Below, one piece after another: positions 19,459 to 23,798 of a DNA stretch of 64,000 bases. This DNA comes from Nonomuraea soli (GTDB lineage: Bacteria; Actinomycetota; Actinomycetes; Streptosporangiales; Streptosporangiaceae). The stretch's first letter is position 1. Each line of letters opens with the position of its first letter. Both the position numbers and the translations under genes were made by a program. The notes under the pieces were generated by a model, which had not been told where the DNA came from, did not search any database, and was given only the letters and a program-made list of their open reading frames with translations. The stretch spans positions 868,001 through 932,000 of the forward strand of contig NZ_JACDUR010000004.1 of assembly GCF_013761175.1 (NCBI RefSeq). Reading direction: 5' to 3'.

Positions 19459-20931
19459 TCACAGCACCCCGGCGGCTGAGCGGATCACCAGGCCGGTGCC
19501 GAGGAGGACCACCATGGCGGCGGTGCCGGTGGGGGCCAGGCCCGAGAGGCGGGCGGCGAGTTTCATGCCGGAGGCGGCGCGGCGCTCCAGGCGGTCGGCG
19601 AGTTTGACGAGCAGCAGGCCGGTGGCGGTGAGGGTGGCGGCCATGCCGAGGCCGTAGGCGGTGACGAGGGCGATGCCGAACCAGGTGCGGCCCAGGGCGA
19701 TGGCGCCGAGCAGGACGATGAGGGCTGACGGGCTGGGCACGAGGCCGCCCGCGACGCCCAGGCCGATCAACCCGGCGCGACGGCTGCGGTGGGGGCGGCT
19801 CCCCTGGGGGTCGCCATCGTGACCGGCGTCGTGGTCAGCGTCGTGCTCATGCCCGTGCTCATGCCCGTGCCCGTGCCCATGTCCGTGGCCGTGCCCATGA
19901 CCGTGCCCATGACCGTGCCCGTGCCCATGTCCGTGCCCATGACCGTGCCCATGCCCATGCCCATGCCCGTCGAGGCCGTGGCCGCGGAGGGCGGACCAGA
20001 GGAGGCGGGCGCCGATGACGACGATGAGCGCCCCGCTGGCCACCCCCAGCCACCCCAGCACCGACTCCCCGGCCAGCGAGCTGGCCACCGTGAGGAGCAC
20101 GCCCACCGCCAGCACCCCGGCCGTGTGCGTGACCGTCACGGTGGCGCCGACGACGAGGGCGTCGCGGGGGCGGCCGCGGCGGCCGGCGAGGTAGGCGGCC
20201 ATGACCGTCTTGCCGTGCCCCGGGATGAGCGCGTGCCCAGCCCCCAGCACGGCGGCGAGGGCGATGGCGAGCAGGCCGAGGGGCACGGTGAGCGTGTCGG
20301 CGCCGATGAGGCCGGTGAAGACGCTGTCGATGTAGGTGAACAGGTCGCCGAGGAACCAGCCGGAGGGCAGCGAGGGAGCGGCGGCGGCCGACGAGGGGGC
20401 GCCGGTCACGCTGATGGTGGCCGAGCGCTGGTCCAGGGGGGAGGAGAGCAGGTCGGCCGGGTAGGAGCGCAGCTCGTCGCTGATGCTCGCCGAGGGCAGC
20501 GGGGCGCCGTTCGAGGTCGCCTGCCGTACGAGGGGGCCGCCGACCACGATCTCGCGCCAGCCGATGCGCTCCTGCTCGAAGGCGTCGGTGAACTCGATCG
20601 TGGACGCGGGCCGTACGGAGGCGACGAGGGAGCAGGTGAGCCGGGAGGTCTCCAGGCCGCCCTGGCCGGGCTGGTAGGAGAACGACGCGTCGGCCACCCG
20701 CCACGGCACCGGGGTGCCGTCGATGACGAGGCGCTGTGCGGAGGCGAGCGTGGCGCACTGCTCGGCGGCGGGGCGCGCGGTGGGCCTGCCCTGGAGGGTC
20801 GGCAGTTCGGCGGCGTCGACCACGGCGGTGTTCTCGACGCGGTCGGCGAAGACCCGCAGGCCGTTGTAGTGGTTGACGGTGAAGTTGCCCAGCGGGTGCG
20901 CCAGCACGAGGGCGACGAGCAGCATTCTCAT
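19459..20931 (-). CDS. NicO/RcnA-family nickel-cobalt type exporter with His-Gly tract
   Basis: A 490-residue integral membrane protein. It begins with an exported domain of about 190 residues (after a short signal-like segment MRMLLVALVLAHPLGNFTVNH), then transmembrane helices with the hallmark GAGHALIPGHGKTVMAAYL and VTHTAGVLAVG, a cytoplasmic or loop tract of 18 His alternating with Gly, then GLVPSPSALIVLL and further helices. These are NicO/RcnA/UreH-type motifs for Ni2+/Co2+ handling, usually efflux. Last gene of a DUF4331-TPR-NicO operon; its ATG overlaps the TPR stop (ATGA). Metal identity is inferred. Confidence 0.85.
   Translation of the reverse strand: MRMLLVALVLAHPLGNFTVNHYNGLRVFADRVENTAVVDAAELPTLQGRPTARPAAEQCATLASAQRLVIDGTPVPWRVADASFSYQPGQGGLETSRLTCSLVASVRPASTIEFTDAFEQERIGWREIVVGGPLVRQATSNGAPLPSASISDELRSYPADLLSSPLDQRSATISVTGAPSSAAAAPSLPSGWFLGDLFTYIDSVFTGLIGADTLTVPLGLLAIALAAVLGAGHALIPGHGKTVMAAYLAGRRGRPRDALVVGATVTVTHTAGVLAVGVLLTVASSLAGESVLGWLGVASGALIVVIGARLLWSALRGHGLDGHGHGHGHGHGHGHGHGHGHGHGHGHGHGHGHGHGHEHGHEHDADHDAGHDGDPQGSRPHRSRRAGLIGLGVAGGLVPSPSALIVLLGAIALGRTWFGIALVTAYGLGMAATLTATGLLLVKLADRLERRAASGMKLAARLSGLAPTGTAAMVVLLGTGLVIRSAAGVL
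19861..19970 (-). repeat. 6-bp repeat tract encoding the His-Gly run
   Basis: About 18 six-base units (CAC or CAT followed by GGN) inside the exporter gene, encoding alternating His and Gly. Codons vary (CAT/CAC, GGC/GGG/GGT/GGA), so it is protein-level selection as well as repeat expansion. Confidence 0.9.
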
Positions 20932-22136
20932 GAGAACCTCGCGAGCGCGGGCAGGGCGGGGTCGAAGGTCGGGTTGTAGGTGCGGGCGAGCGATGTGCCG
21001 CGCAGGCCGAGGGCCTGTTCGATCTCGGCCCGGTGGTGGTGCAGGAGGGCGTTGCGCCAGCCGGTCGCGGTGGCCTGTTTCGCGTACGGCAGAGCCTCGC
21101 GCGAGCGGCCCGCCCGGTGAAGCGCCCAGGCGAGCGCGTCGGCGGCGACGGGATTGGGGTTGCGCCCGAACTCGGCGCGCGCGTGCCGTACGGCCAGCGC
21201 CGGGTCGCCGTGGTCGGCCTCGAACTCGGCCAGGGTCAGGTCGTCGAGCACTCCGGATTCGGTGGCCAGACGCTGCTGGGCGCGCAGGAGGGTCCAGTCG
21301 GGGGCGAGCCCGGCCTTGATGCGCACCTCGCCGTACTCCACGAGGTACTGCGGCAGGGGCAGGCGCCCGACGACGGACTCGTAGAGGGGCAGCGCCGCCT
21401 TCAGGTCGCCGGACAGGGCGTGGGCGCGGGCCTGGCCGGCGATGGCCGGGGTGAAGGAGGGCATCGCCTGCAGCGCCTGGCCGTACCACTGCTGCGCCTG
21501 GGCGAGCTCGCCCGATCGCAGTGCCAGCTCGCCCAGGTAGAAGCGGCAGTAGGCGACGTCGGCCGGCTGGTAGGCGTCGGCGAGGGCGTATTCGAGGTGG
21601 CGCCGCGCGCCGGCGAGGTCGCCGCGGAGTTCGGCGGCGTAGGAGGCGCGGCTGAAGGAGGCCACGCCGGGGCGCAGGGCGATCATGCGCTCGATGGCCT
21701 GGCCGGCCCGGTCGTGGTCGCCGAGCTGGGTGCGGGCGTCGGCCAGGACGCCGAGGGCGGTGGTGCTGTAGGGGTTGGCGGCGACGGCCCGTTCGGCGAG
21801 CCGTACGGCCTGGGAGAAGTCGTGGCGGGCGGCGGCGAGGGCGGCGCCGGCGGTGAGCACCGCGTCGTCCTGGGGTGCCAGCCCGTTGGCCTTGATCAGG
21901 GCTTGTTCGGCCTTGGGGTAGAAGGCGGGGTTGCCGGTGATGCGGGCCTGTTCGAGGTGTTCGGTGGCGAGCCGGGCCCAGCCTCGGTAGTCGCCGGGCA
22001 GGCGCTGGAGGCGGGACTGGAGGGTTTCCGTGGTGCGGGTGGCCGCGCTCTGCTGGGGCGGCGCGGCCACGGTGGCGACGGTGAAGATCAGCGCCCCGGC
22101 CAGCACGACGCCGCCTGCCGCGATGAGGACACGCAT
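20928..22136 (-). CDS. membrane-anchored or secreted TPR protein
   Basis: A 402-residue protein with an N-terminal signal or anchor (MRVLIAAGGVVLAGALIFTVATVAA) and then tandem tetratricopeptide repeats (for example AVRLAERAVAANPYSTTALGVLA, GELAQAQQWYGQALQAMPSF, REALPYAKQATATG). It is an extracytoplasmic scaffold or partner protein. Sits between the DUF4331 gene and the NicO exporter, coupled to the latter by ATGA, and separated from DUF4331 by 83 bases. No enzymatic motif. Confidence 0.85.
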   Translation of the reverse strand: MRVLIAAGGVVLAGALIFTVATVAAPPQQSAATRTTETLQSRLQRLPGDYRGWARLATEHLEQARITGNPAFYPKAEQALIKANGLAPQDDAVLTAGAALAAARHDFSQAVRLAERAVAANPYSTTALGVLADARTQLGDHDRAGQAIERMIALRPGVASFSRASYAAELRGDLAGARRHLEYALADAYQPADVAYCRFYLGELALRSGELAQAQQWYGQALQAMPSFTPAIAGQARAHALSGDLKAALPLYESVVGRLPLPQYLVEYGEVRIKAGLAPDWTLLRAQQRLATESGVLDDLTLAEFEADHGDPALAVRHARAEFGRNPNPVAADALAWALHRAGRSREALPYAKQATATGWRNALLHHHRAEIEQALGLRGTSLARTYNPTFDPALPALARFS

Positions 22137-22219
22137 GAGCTGAACTCCTTCGGACGGAACGGGGGGACGGCGGGCTCCAGGGAGACGAGGGAAGGAGCCC
22201 GCCGAGTTCTGCTGCGGCC

Positions 22220-23605
22220 TTACTTGGCTCCGGCGGTGTTCACGCCGGAGTTCGAGGGCAGGGCCATGTACGGGAACGTCGAGCCGAACGGCTTGTCGTT
22301 GGCGTCGACCTTGTCGGTCAGCGCGGGCACGAGCTTGCCGGAGGTCGCGGCGCCGGCGAGCGCCTGGAGCTCGATGTCGAGCACGTCGTCGGCCAGGCGG
22401 CGGCCGTTCGGGAAGCCCTGCAGGTCACCGGCGAGGACGCCGAGCCGGTTGGGGTCCTTCGAGGGCGGGATCGACATGTTGAGTCGCAGCATCTCGGCGG
22501 GACGCAGCTTGCCCGCGTCCTTGTTGAGCGTCTGCGAGTTCAGGTCGGCCATGATCGGGCCGTTGCCCTTGGCGATGCCGGTCAGGAAGATCTCGACCAG
22601 GTCGTTGCGCGGGGTGGCGGGCGCCTTGATGCCGTAGATGGCCTCCAGGAGCTTGGGCACCTCGGGCTCGGTGACGCGCTTGACGACGGCGGGGACGTCG
22701 GCGTCCTTGTGCGGGGGCAGCGCGTTGAAGGCGTCCTTCAGCCCTGCGGGCACGACGACCTCGTTGACCAGCGGGTTGCCCAGGCGGGAGACCTGGACGT
22801 AGCCGTTCGGCGTCCACTTGTCGACGGTGGTCCACACGCCGATGACCGGGTTGCGCTTGACGTCGCCCTTGAGGGCCAGGTCCTTGGCGGGCACCTGCAC
22901 GCCCAGCGTGCTGATGTTGTAGCCGCGGACGCTGTCCTGGCCGACCTCGGACAGGTTGCCGCCGTAGAGCAGGTCGAAGACGCGCAGGTCGAGGAAGAAG
23001 GCGTCGTCGGACTGCCCGGCGTAGGTCTTGCCGCCGCCCGGCAGGTTGCGGATGGCCTGGTTCCTCAGGGTGCCGTAGTCGGGGATGGAGGCGGGTCCCA
23101 CGTTGCTGGGGGCGGCGATCGCGTTGTTGATGAGCGTCTGGGTGCCCGACTCGGTGATGCGCTTGAGCGTGTAGCGCTGCTTGTAGAGCAGGTTCTCGTC
23201 GTCGAGCGAGGTCACGGGGCCGTTGTTGTACAGGAACGTGGTGTTGCCGCGCTTGTCGTCGTCGCGGAAGGTCCACTGGTAGCTGATGTCGGGCTTGGCG
23301 TCACCGTCGTTGTCGATCCTGATGTAGTACCGCGAGCGGGTGTCCCAGGTGTAGAAGTTGGGGCCGCCGTTGGGCTCCTGGAAGGGGAGCCAGTTGCCGA
23401 GCAGGGTGACGGTGTCGGGCTTGTCGGGGCTGACGAACGCGTAGACGTCGGTGTCGTCGTTGCGCGGGTCGCCCGCGATCATCGGGGCTTCGCGGTGTGA
23501 GGAAGCCGTGCCGGTGTCGGGCCGGAGGAAGGCGAGCGAGGAGGCGGTCAACGCCACCGCGACGCCTAGCCCGACTACTGTGCGCCGGTTGATCCGGAGC
23601 TCCAT
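22220..23605 (-). CDS. secreted DUF4331 family protein
   Basis: A 461-residue DUF4331 protein. The N terminus INRRTVVGLGVAVALTASSLAFL is a signal with an arginine pair. The mature part starts with the family hallmark SSHREAPMIAGDPRNDDTDVYAFVSPD and continues with YIRIDNDGDAKPDI and a DDAFFLDLRVFD segment, rich in Asp and Asn as in calcium-binding or beta-propeller proteins. Function of the family is not established. First gene of the operon with TPR and NicO genes; divergent from the ABC exporter across a promoter with two inverted repeats. Confidence 0.88.
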   Translation of the reverse strand: MELRINRRTVVGLGVAVALTASSLAFLRPDTGTASSHREAPMIAGDPRNDDTDVYAFVSPDKPDTVTLLGNWLPFQEPNGGPNFYTWDTRSRYYIRIDNDGDAKPDISYQWTFRDDDKRGNTTFLYNNGPVTSLDDENLLYKQRYTLKRITESGTQTLINNAIAAPSNVGPASIPDYGTLRNQAIRNLPGGGKTYAGQSDDAFFLDLRVFDLLYGGNLSEVGQDSVRGYNISTLGVQVPAKDLALKGDVKRNPVIGVWTTVDKWTPNGYVQVSRLGNPLVNEVVVPAGLKDAFNALPPHKDADVPAVVKRVTEPEVPKLLEAIYGIKAPATPRNDLVEIFLTGIAKGNGPIMADLNSQTLNKDAGKLRPAEMLRLNMSIPPSKDPNRLGVLAGDLQGFPNGRRLADDVLDIELQALAGAATSGKLVPALTDKVDANDKPFGSTFPYMALPSNSGVNTAGAK

Positions 23606-23718
23606 GGTTGGGTCCTTGTCTCGTGACTGTCGGAGAGAAGAGGTTCCGGCCGGGTTCCTCGACGCTCTATTCGTCGCGAGTCGGCGAGCGGATTGCGTCT
23701 CCTTCCCAGGGAGTAGAA

Positions 23719-23761
23719 GTCAACTTTGGTTGACATACTTAGGTCGTCAATTTAGGTTGAC
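23719..23761 (+). promoter_or_regulatory. promoter with two overlapping inverted repeats before the ABC exporter
   Basis: GTCAAC-TTTG-GTTGAC (23719-23734) and GTCAA-N6-TTGAC (23746-23761) are two related inverted repeats. A sigma-70-type promoter overlaps them: -35 TTGACA at 23730-23735, 17-base spacer, -10 TAGGTT at 23753-23758. A repressor on these sites would block transcription toward the gene at 23799 and possibly the divergent DUF4331 gene. No regulator gene lies next to it. Confidence 0.7.
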
Positions 23762-23798
23762 CGGTGTAGAACCCGATCCCTGAAACGTTGGAGCAGGC

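Follow-up and report, generated by a model that had tools for sequence, protein, structure and literature searches.

In YcnI/YcnJ and CopC/CopD, an extracytoplasmic copper protein with an N-terminal histidine works together with a membrane transporter. Metal binding by an N-terminal histidine has also been reported for the anglerases Ang-1 (Pseudomonadota) and Ang-2 (Actinomycetota), with dissociation constants of 73.6 and 62.3 nM for copper and, for Ang-1, of 220 nM for nickel, and these proteins are proposed to capture metal for uptake (PMC12537917). In the amino-terminal Cu(II)- and Ni(II)-binding (ATCUN) motif, the amine, two amides and the imidazole together coordinate the metal ion, Cu(II) or Ni(II), in square-planar geometry (PMC7701195). 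Here we analyze an operon of Nonomuraea soli encoding a DUF4331 protein, a tetratricopeptide repeat (TPR) protein and a NicO-type permease, located in a 64,000-nucleotide stretch of DNA (contig NZ_JACDUR010000004.1, positions 868,001 to 932,000 of the forward strand) that is referred to as the window.

Our proposal, to which we give about even confidence, is that DUF4331 is a large family of ATCUN metalloproteins which keeps Ser-X-His through either signal cleavage or removal of the initiator methionine. Together with a TPR scaffold and a permease starting with histidine, which would represent a third, NicO-fused kind of anglerase, it would form a SigK-controlled two-site copper/nickel relay spanning the envelope in Actinomycetota and Cyanobacteriota and, with HupE as the permease, in Pseudomonadota.

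The DUF4331-TPR-NicO operon

An earlier sequence-only reading of the window had assigned the three genes to one operon, and coordinates, strand and Pfam matches agree with this:

22220-23605, minus strand: DUF4331 gene, 461 amino acids (aa), exported; PF14224 E 1.2e-148; model with a predicted local distance difference test score (pLDDT) of 77.6 and a predicted template modeling score (pTM) of 0.83
20928-22136, minus strand: TPR gene, 402 aa, with a hydrophobic export or anchor segment at the N-terminus; several Pfam TPR models above cut-off
19459-20931, minus strand: NicO permease gene, 490 aa, with an exported N-terminal domain; PF03824 41.7 bits (cut-off 27.7); AlphaFold model
20928-20931, minus strand: ATGA overlap (4 bp) of TPR stop and NicO start, predicted translational coupling; among the 61 TPR-NicO neighbor pairs in the named loci described below, 48 have a 4-bp overlap

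The DUF4331 protein matches PF14224 over its full length at 496.3 bits (curated cut-off 27), which places it in the family; it is the single match in the 10.09-Mb assembly (21 contigs), and its closest relatives among the matches listed are mostly from Nonomuraea. The NicO start was taken at 20931 because the TPR stop and NicO start share the ATGA, the 676-aa open reading frame being over-long. Two narrower models remained below their cut-offs: CcmH/CycH TPR (PF23914) for the TPR protein, at 30.1 bits against 42, and the RcnA Ni/Co exporter model NF007454 for NicO, at 116.5 bits against 195.

Co-occurrence of the three families in Actinomycetota

DUF4331 loci were taken from three draws (phylum, family and named) and annotated with our own gene caller and profiles, and a trio was scored within four genes. 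The phylum draw was even: all 20 full-length matches outside the window were fetched and L080, which gave no DUF4331 call, was dropped, leaving 19 loci. The family draw provided 57 loci from 73 DUF4331 copies scoring at least 200 bits, and the named set consists of the best 80 of 588 confirmed relatives and is thus biased towards the window; in two cases the same stretch of DNA occurs in both the family and the named sets (L085/L122 and L087/L128). The trio was found in 11 of the 19 loci of the phylum draw, in 36 of the 57 of the family draw and in 66 of the 80 named ones, and every one of the four loci of the named set with DUF4331 alone is close to a contig end.

In 150 family genomes, surveyed by coordinates only and without the gene caller, a DUF4331 gene stands no more than 6 kb away from 48 of the 51 NicO copies that carry the N-terminal domain, versus 0 of the 25 that lack it; these counts cover ten candidates per genome at E ≤ 1e-20, weaker NicO copies being uncounted. 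The three unlinked copies are found in G210, in G218 and in G173, the last being a broken copy with DPLG instead of HPLG. The survey of DUF4331 neighborhoods for NicO and TPR partners, which the sequence-only reading had suggested as a check, shows that the families recur together.

Joined TPR-NicO frames in L062 and L120 were considered as Rosetta-stone evidence and set aside: an internal signal-peptide-like segment precedes HPLGNF, and they may be frame joins. A family of small proteins (170-257 aa) is encoded next to DUF4331 in L109-L112, L116 and L117; one was tested and had no Pfam match.

The N-terminus and fold of DUF4331

23504-23605, minus strand: signal peptide of DUF4331, residues 1-34, twin-arginine-like (NRRTVVG), ending in GTA at the predicted cleavage site
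23495-23503, minus strand: Ser-Ser-His, predicted mature residues 1-3 of DUF4331 (ATCUN motif); leaderless relatives start exactly there

The actinobacterial set holds 159 distinct DUF4331 copies after removal of two duplicates, of which 155 are assignable; the other four are fragmentary or lack a clear start. Counted from the predicted N-terminus, the third mature position is histidine in 154 of the 155. The residue before the tripeptide is alanine after a leader in 142 copies, with A, G or S at position -3 in 130 of these, and the initiator methionine in the other 13. These 13 leaderless copies start Met-Ser-Ser-His, with an upstream in-frame stop within the stretch shown in 11. Remote leaderless paralogs begin with methionine followed by SHH or SNH in 20 of 20 fetched regions (start codon ATG in 17 by script; GTG in two and ATG in L266 on re-inspection), and three further remote paralogs read SHH, ADH and SDH. 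Plasmid loci, mostly from other taxa, have by our reading a clear alanine followed by SSH or ASH in 15 of 18 cases (L233 is ambiguous). The DUF4331 protein of a Nostoc plasmid reads A/SDHQD (the slash marks the predicted processing site), and therefore REAP is not fixed whereas His3 is.

Methionine aminopeptidase normally uncovers serine or alanine after methionine; signal cleavage and methionine removal thus reach the same free X-X-His N-terminus by two routes. This N-terminus appears to be an ATCUN motif for Cu(II) or Ni(II), the leaderless class being the strongest point for the assignment. The protein of the window, previously described as Asp-rich, is mildly so (40 of 461 residues, 8.7%), but judged from its sequence the N-terminus rather than the acidic residues is the best candidate metal site: there is no cysteine, and one of only two histidines is that of the N-terminal motif. 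An acidic metal site was dropped as not needed.

In 11 of the 13 leaderless loci (L076, L103-L108, L223-L228), the gene immediately upstream of DUF4331 encodes a small protein with a twin-arginine translocation (Tat)-type leader (SRRxxLRG), which suggests that leaderless DUF4331 may be exported by Tat hitch-hiking on this protein. Twin-arginine export was not retained as a feature of the family, RR-x-hydrophobic being found in 46 of 113 trio leaders, including that of the window.

Comparison of the DUF4331 model, in which residues 1-44 have low pLDDT, with solved structures gave no significant match (none at E ≤ 0.001), and a sequence search against the PDB returned no match for this protein. 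The best Foldseek rows, though weak, were a family 9 carbohydrate-binding module (CBM9; E 0.024, probability 0.44) and the ethylbenzene dehydrogenase gamma subunit (E 0.053). VIA gave CBM74 (Z 7.2) and then antibody domains (Z 5-6), read as a common beta-sandwich, and 1I82, the top Foldseek row, is absent among the VIA rows listed.

The N-terminal domain and His-rich loop of NicO

20392-20898, minus strand: exported beta domain of NicO, residues 12-180, predicted mature start His12-Pro-Leu-Gly-Asn; 9GCE match and invariant residues
19789-19980, minus strand: His-rich loop of NicO, residues 318-381, 25 His; topology predicted from sequence and model helices

Invariant residues in 42 aligned NicO proteins are His12, Pro13, Asn20, Asp39, Ala41, Glu42, Cys59 and Cys100; of these, Asp39 and Glu42 are candidate second metal ligands. 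The residue preceding the HPLG motif is alanine in 36 of 42, methionine in one and threonine in one, the motif being unmatched in four. With cleavage predicted, NicO thus carries the conserved histidine right after the signal peptide by which anglerases are recognized. The domain had been called an unusual fused and exported one; fused and exported it appears to be, but it is conserved in the family, with His12 in 42 of 42 aligned rows.

In the AlphaFold model of NicO (pLDDT 76.6, pTM 0.55), nine strands and one helix separate the leader from the membrane part. The top row in both Foldseek and VIA is 9GCE, the copper-bound Ang-1 domain from a HupE/UreJ-2 protein, which is also the sole Foldseek hit at E ≤ 0.001 (E 1.2e-4, probability 1.00); VIA aligned 132 residues at Z 8.4 and a root-mean-square deviation of 3.7, with ZrgA second at Z 8.1. 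A sequence search against the PDB matched NicO solely in its His-rich stretch and gave no matches for the Comamonadaceae HupE protein. On the strength of the model, the domain is of anglerase anatomy, yet not assigned to Ang-1 or Ang-2.

The His-rich loop is probably cytoplasmic by the positive-inside rule. The 18 His-Gly dipeptides previously attributed to NicO were miscounted: there are 20 His-Gly and 23 Gly-His dipeptides among 30 histidines.

A SigK-type promoter

23668-23694, minus strand: SigK-type extracytoplasmic function (ECF) promoter of the operon, AATCC-N16-CGAATA, upstream of DUF4331; pattern search

The operon promoter appears to resemble the published SigK consensus. Across 114 trio upstream regions, which are related to each other, the strict pattern ATCC-N15..17-CGAATA occurs in 25, versus 0.08 expected from first-order Markov copies and 2 on the reverse strand. 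A looser CGAA pattern occurs in 52 regions, with 3.0 expected; only the strict fixed-spacing pattern was weighed because the looser one also scores 16 of 114 on the reverse strand.

The operon site is the sole strict AATCC site in the 10-Mb genome. A slightly looser pattern has five genome sites; one precedes a molybdopterin oxidoreductase-fasciclin operon that diverges from a sigma/RskA pair. Looser motifs lie ahead of the sigma gene of this pair, of a second such pair and of a third ECF gene whose partner is of another type. In several deep actinobacteria DUF4331 has genes for ECF sigma factors and anti-sigma factors as neighbors, L061 and L062 having RskA_C by Pfam, and such genes are annotated beside it in two Pseudoalteromonas plasmids. 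From these motifs and neighbors, the trio appears to be under SigK-type ECF control; the signal of the SigK/RskA regulon is stated to be unknown (PMC7509140).

In L246, from the genome of the window itself, molybdopterin oxidoreductase and fasciclin genes diverge from a sigma/RskA pair, and each side has a motif of this type. GTCAAC/GTTGAC repeats at 23719-23763, between DUF4331 and a divergent ATP-binding cassette (ABC) exporter, are also found in the Nonomuraea relatives L101, L130 and L185 and are perhaps the operator of that exporter.

Related gene sets in other phyla and on plasmids

DUF4331 matches were found in 40 plasmid records; 18 places were inspected, as well as one that belongs to the remote "DUF4331 family" class. 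The order DUF4331-middle gene-HupE/UreJ occurs in Lichenicola (two plasmids), Comamonadaceae, Marinobacter and Pseudoalteromonas CF6-2, and by our own gene calls plus a profile match DUF4331-middle gene-HupE is also present in Variovorax and Paraburkholderia PGU19, while P. hospita has TPR-HupE-DUF4331. This HupE version of the trio spans alpha-, beta- and gammaproteobacteria. The middle protein scores above a TPR cut-off in Marinobacter, both Paraburkholderia and CF6-2, and Pseudoalteromonas THAF3 shows DUF4331-Ig-TPR-like with no HupE within the stretch.

Among the HupE proteins of these proteobacterial trios, both of the two tested match PF13795 (HupE_UreJ_2) and all eight aligned start Ala-His. 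Sixty of 95 HupE-like plasmid records were listed: 11 matched into the N-terminal part (H41-H51), of which 10 adjoin DUF4331 and the eleventh, H51, retains just an anti-sigma gene and HupE; in the remaining 49 the match is to the membrane half. A Nostoc plasmid, outside the 40 listed DUF4331 records, carries DUF4331-TPR-NicO at 135, 185 and 477 bits with our own profiles, and Adhaeribacter (Bacteroidota) and Miltoncostaea have DUF4331-TPR.

Type II secretion and sortase neighbors were rejected as the core system, being limited, among the 18 plasmid loci, to five from Rhodobacterales and one Streptomyces plasmid. The Rhodobacterales loci with type II secretion genes are from Sulfitobacter (two), Paracoccus, Marinovum and Jannaschia and have no annotated TPR or HupE gene within the stretch. 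Loci of this order (L204, L209, L233, L234, L238) mostly have a small gene downstream of DUF4331, and one of the plasmids is 32.5 kb. The Streptomyces plasmid locus (L208) holds two DUF4331 genes, one of them followed by a class F sortase gene, with molybdopterin oxidoreductase, fasciclin and DUF4394 genes nearby.

A proposed envelope copper/nickel relay and its alternatives

We read the operon as a putative extracytoplasmic Cu(II)/Ni(II)-handling relay. The exported DUF4331 protein would chelate square-planar Cu(II) or Ni(II) at its mature NH2-Ser-Ser-His, and NicO would provide a second metal site outside, at its mature N-terminus (His1 of the anglerase-like domain), with the His-rich loop inside. 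Docking of DUF4331 to NicO may be the task of the exported TPR protein, which would be translated together with the permease; this role is inferred from the ATGA coupling that is common to most TPR-NicO pairs. A SigK/RskA-type ECF sigma factor would turn the set on, in which case it would be a stress or homeostasis module and not a housekeeping transporter. We lean towards buffering or sequestration in the envelope, with the permease sending excess metal outward to DUF4331, because RcnA efflux proteins are relatives of NicO and because ATCUN sites, which are tight Cu(II) sites, would be expected to draw metal away from a mono-His site of roughly 60-75 nM. For the relay as a whole the case seems evenly poised. 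Copper is at least as likely a substrate as Ni/Co-type metals. The co-occurrence part of the sequence-only reading is strongly borne out. Its metal link gains separate support at the sequence level from the N-terminal histidine domain of NicO, which resembles a copper-binding domain, and from the ATCUN motif of DUF4331. Its version of events, in which NicO would export, DUF4331 buffer and the TPR protein scaffold, is compatible with our results as the leading one.

Several observations weigh against the relay. Of the 73 DUF4331 copies in the family genomes, 25 lack an N-domain NicO gene at a distance of up to 6 kb, and therefore DUF4331 has some role without NicO. The XXH motif is replaced by SNR in L114 and is not clear in two DUF4331 copies of one Adhaeribacter strain (ESSSH). 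The VIA score of near 8 for 9GCE is modest, the alignment begins only at model residue 16, and with pLDDT below 50 over residues 1-16 His12 is not placed; hhalign gave a probability of 3.1 between the N-domain of NicO and Ang-1-type HupE domains, with no profile homology detected. The middle protein of the Lichenicola, Comamonadaceae and Variovorax loci is weakly TPR-like, below all Pfam cut-offs, and a type II secretion cluster adjoins DUF4331 in 5 of 18 plasmid loci, all from Rhodobacterales.

A serious rival, although one of rather low probability, is metal acquisition, in which DUF4331 would scavenge Cu(II) or Ni(II) and pass it, perhaps reduced to Cu(I), to the N-domain of NicO or HupE for uptake. 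Uptake is what the anglerase authors propose for HupE/UreJ-2 fusions, termed known nickel permeases (PMC12537917), and this counts against the outward version. The predicted outward orientation of both metal motifs also suits acquisition. The tighter Cu(II) binding expected of an ATCUN site than of a mono-His site argues the other way, as do the match of NicO to the RcnA exporter model, though below its cut-off, and a promoter that is SigK-type and not a known metal-starvation operator.

It is unlikely that XXH is kept for a non-metal reason, as an N-terminal catalytic amine or nucleophile or as a docking tail. The segment does fall within the low-pLDDT residues 1-44, as a docking tail would, but His3 is constant while residue 1 can be S, T or A and residue 2 can be S, N, D or H, which points to ATCUN and not to a nucleophile, and leaderless forms without TPR or NicO neighbors retain XXH, which argues against a mere TPR docking tail. 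That DUF4331 is instead a secreted or surface structural or binding protein, weakly CBM9-like and served by lineage-specific secretion helpers with NicO as an accessory, is improbable: the CBM9 and ethylbenzene dehydrogenase rows and the type II secretion and class F sortase neighbors would fit, but the fold hits are not significant and the linkage of 48 of 51 N-domain permeases to DUF4331 is left unexplained.

Comparison with known systems

In the open literature searched, which leaves most subscription papers outside its coverage, neither DUF4331 nor PF14224 was found by name, anglerases are named in one paper, and the terms NicO, TPR and tetratricopeptide have zero occurrences in the main text of the anglerase paper (PMC12537917). 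Both the permease type and the metal motifs belong to kinds already known; that literature yielded neither a combination of them nor DUF4331 as an ATCUN family. If true, the proposed relay would give DUF4331 its first function, set two metal-chelating N-termini in series and tie extracytoplasmic copper/nickel to the SigK/RskA regulon.

With SigK-RskA (ECF18/19) regulons the operon shares the fixed-spacing ATCC-N16-CGAA, here common to sigma/RskA and fasciclin operons, but the trio of the window sits away from the sigma genes of its genome. Serum albumin, human CTR1 and other ATCUN proteins likewise have a free N-terminal X-X-His, whereas DUF4331 is bacterial, secreted or leaderless, and has its motif known from sequence. 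RcnA-type Ni/Co exporters resemble the permease of the window in the NicO domain and His-rich loop; they differ in that the latter has an exported N-terminal domain and DUF4331 and TPR partners and scores below the cut-off of NF007454. The proposed working principle is that of YcnI/YcnJ and CopC/CopD, a likeness of function between different families. Ang-1 and Ang-2 (9GCE) share with NicO an exported beta-sandwich with a mature N-terminal histidine fused to a small Ni/Cu-type permease, and the HupE/UreJ_2 proteins of the proteobacterial trios have the same Ala-His N-terminus; unlike the anglerases, which are fused to HupE/UreJ-2 and show no detected profile similarity, the permease here is NicO (PF03824).

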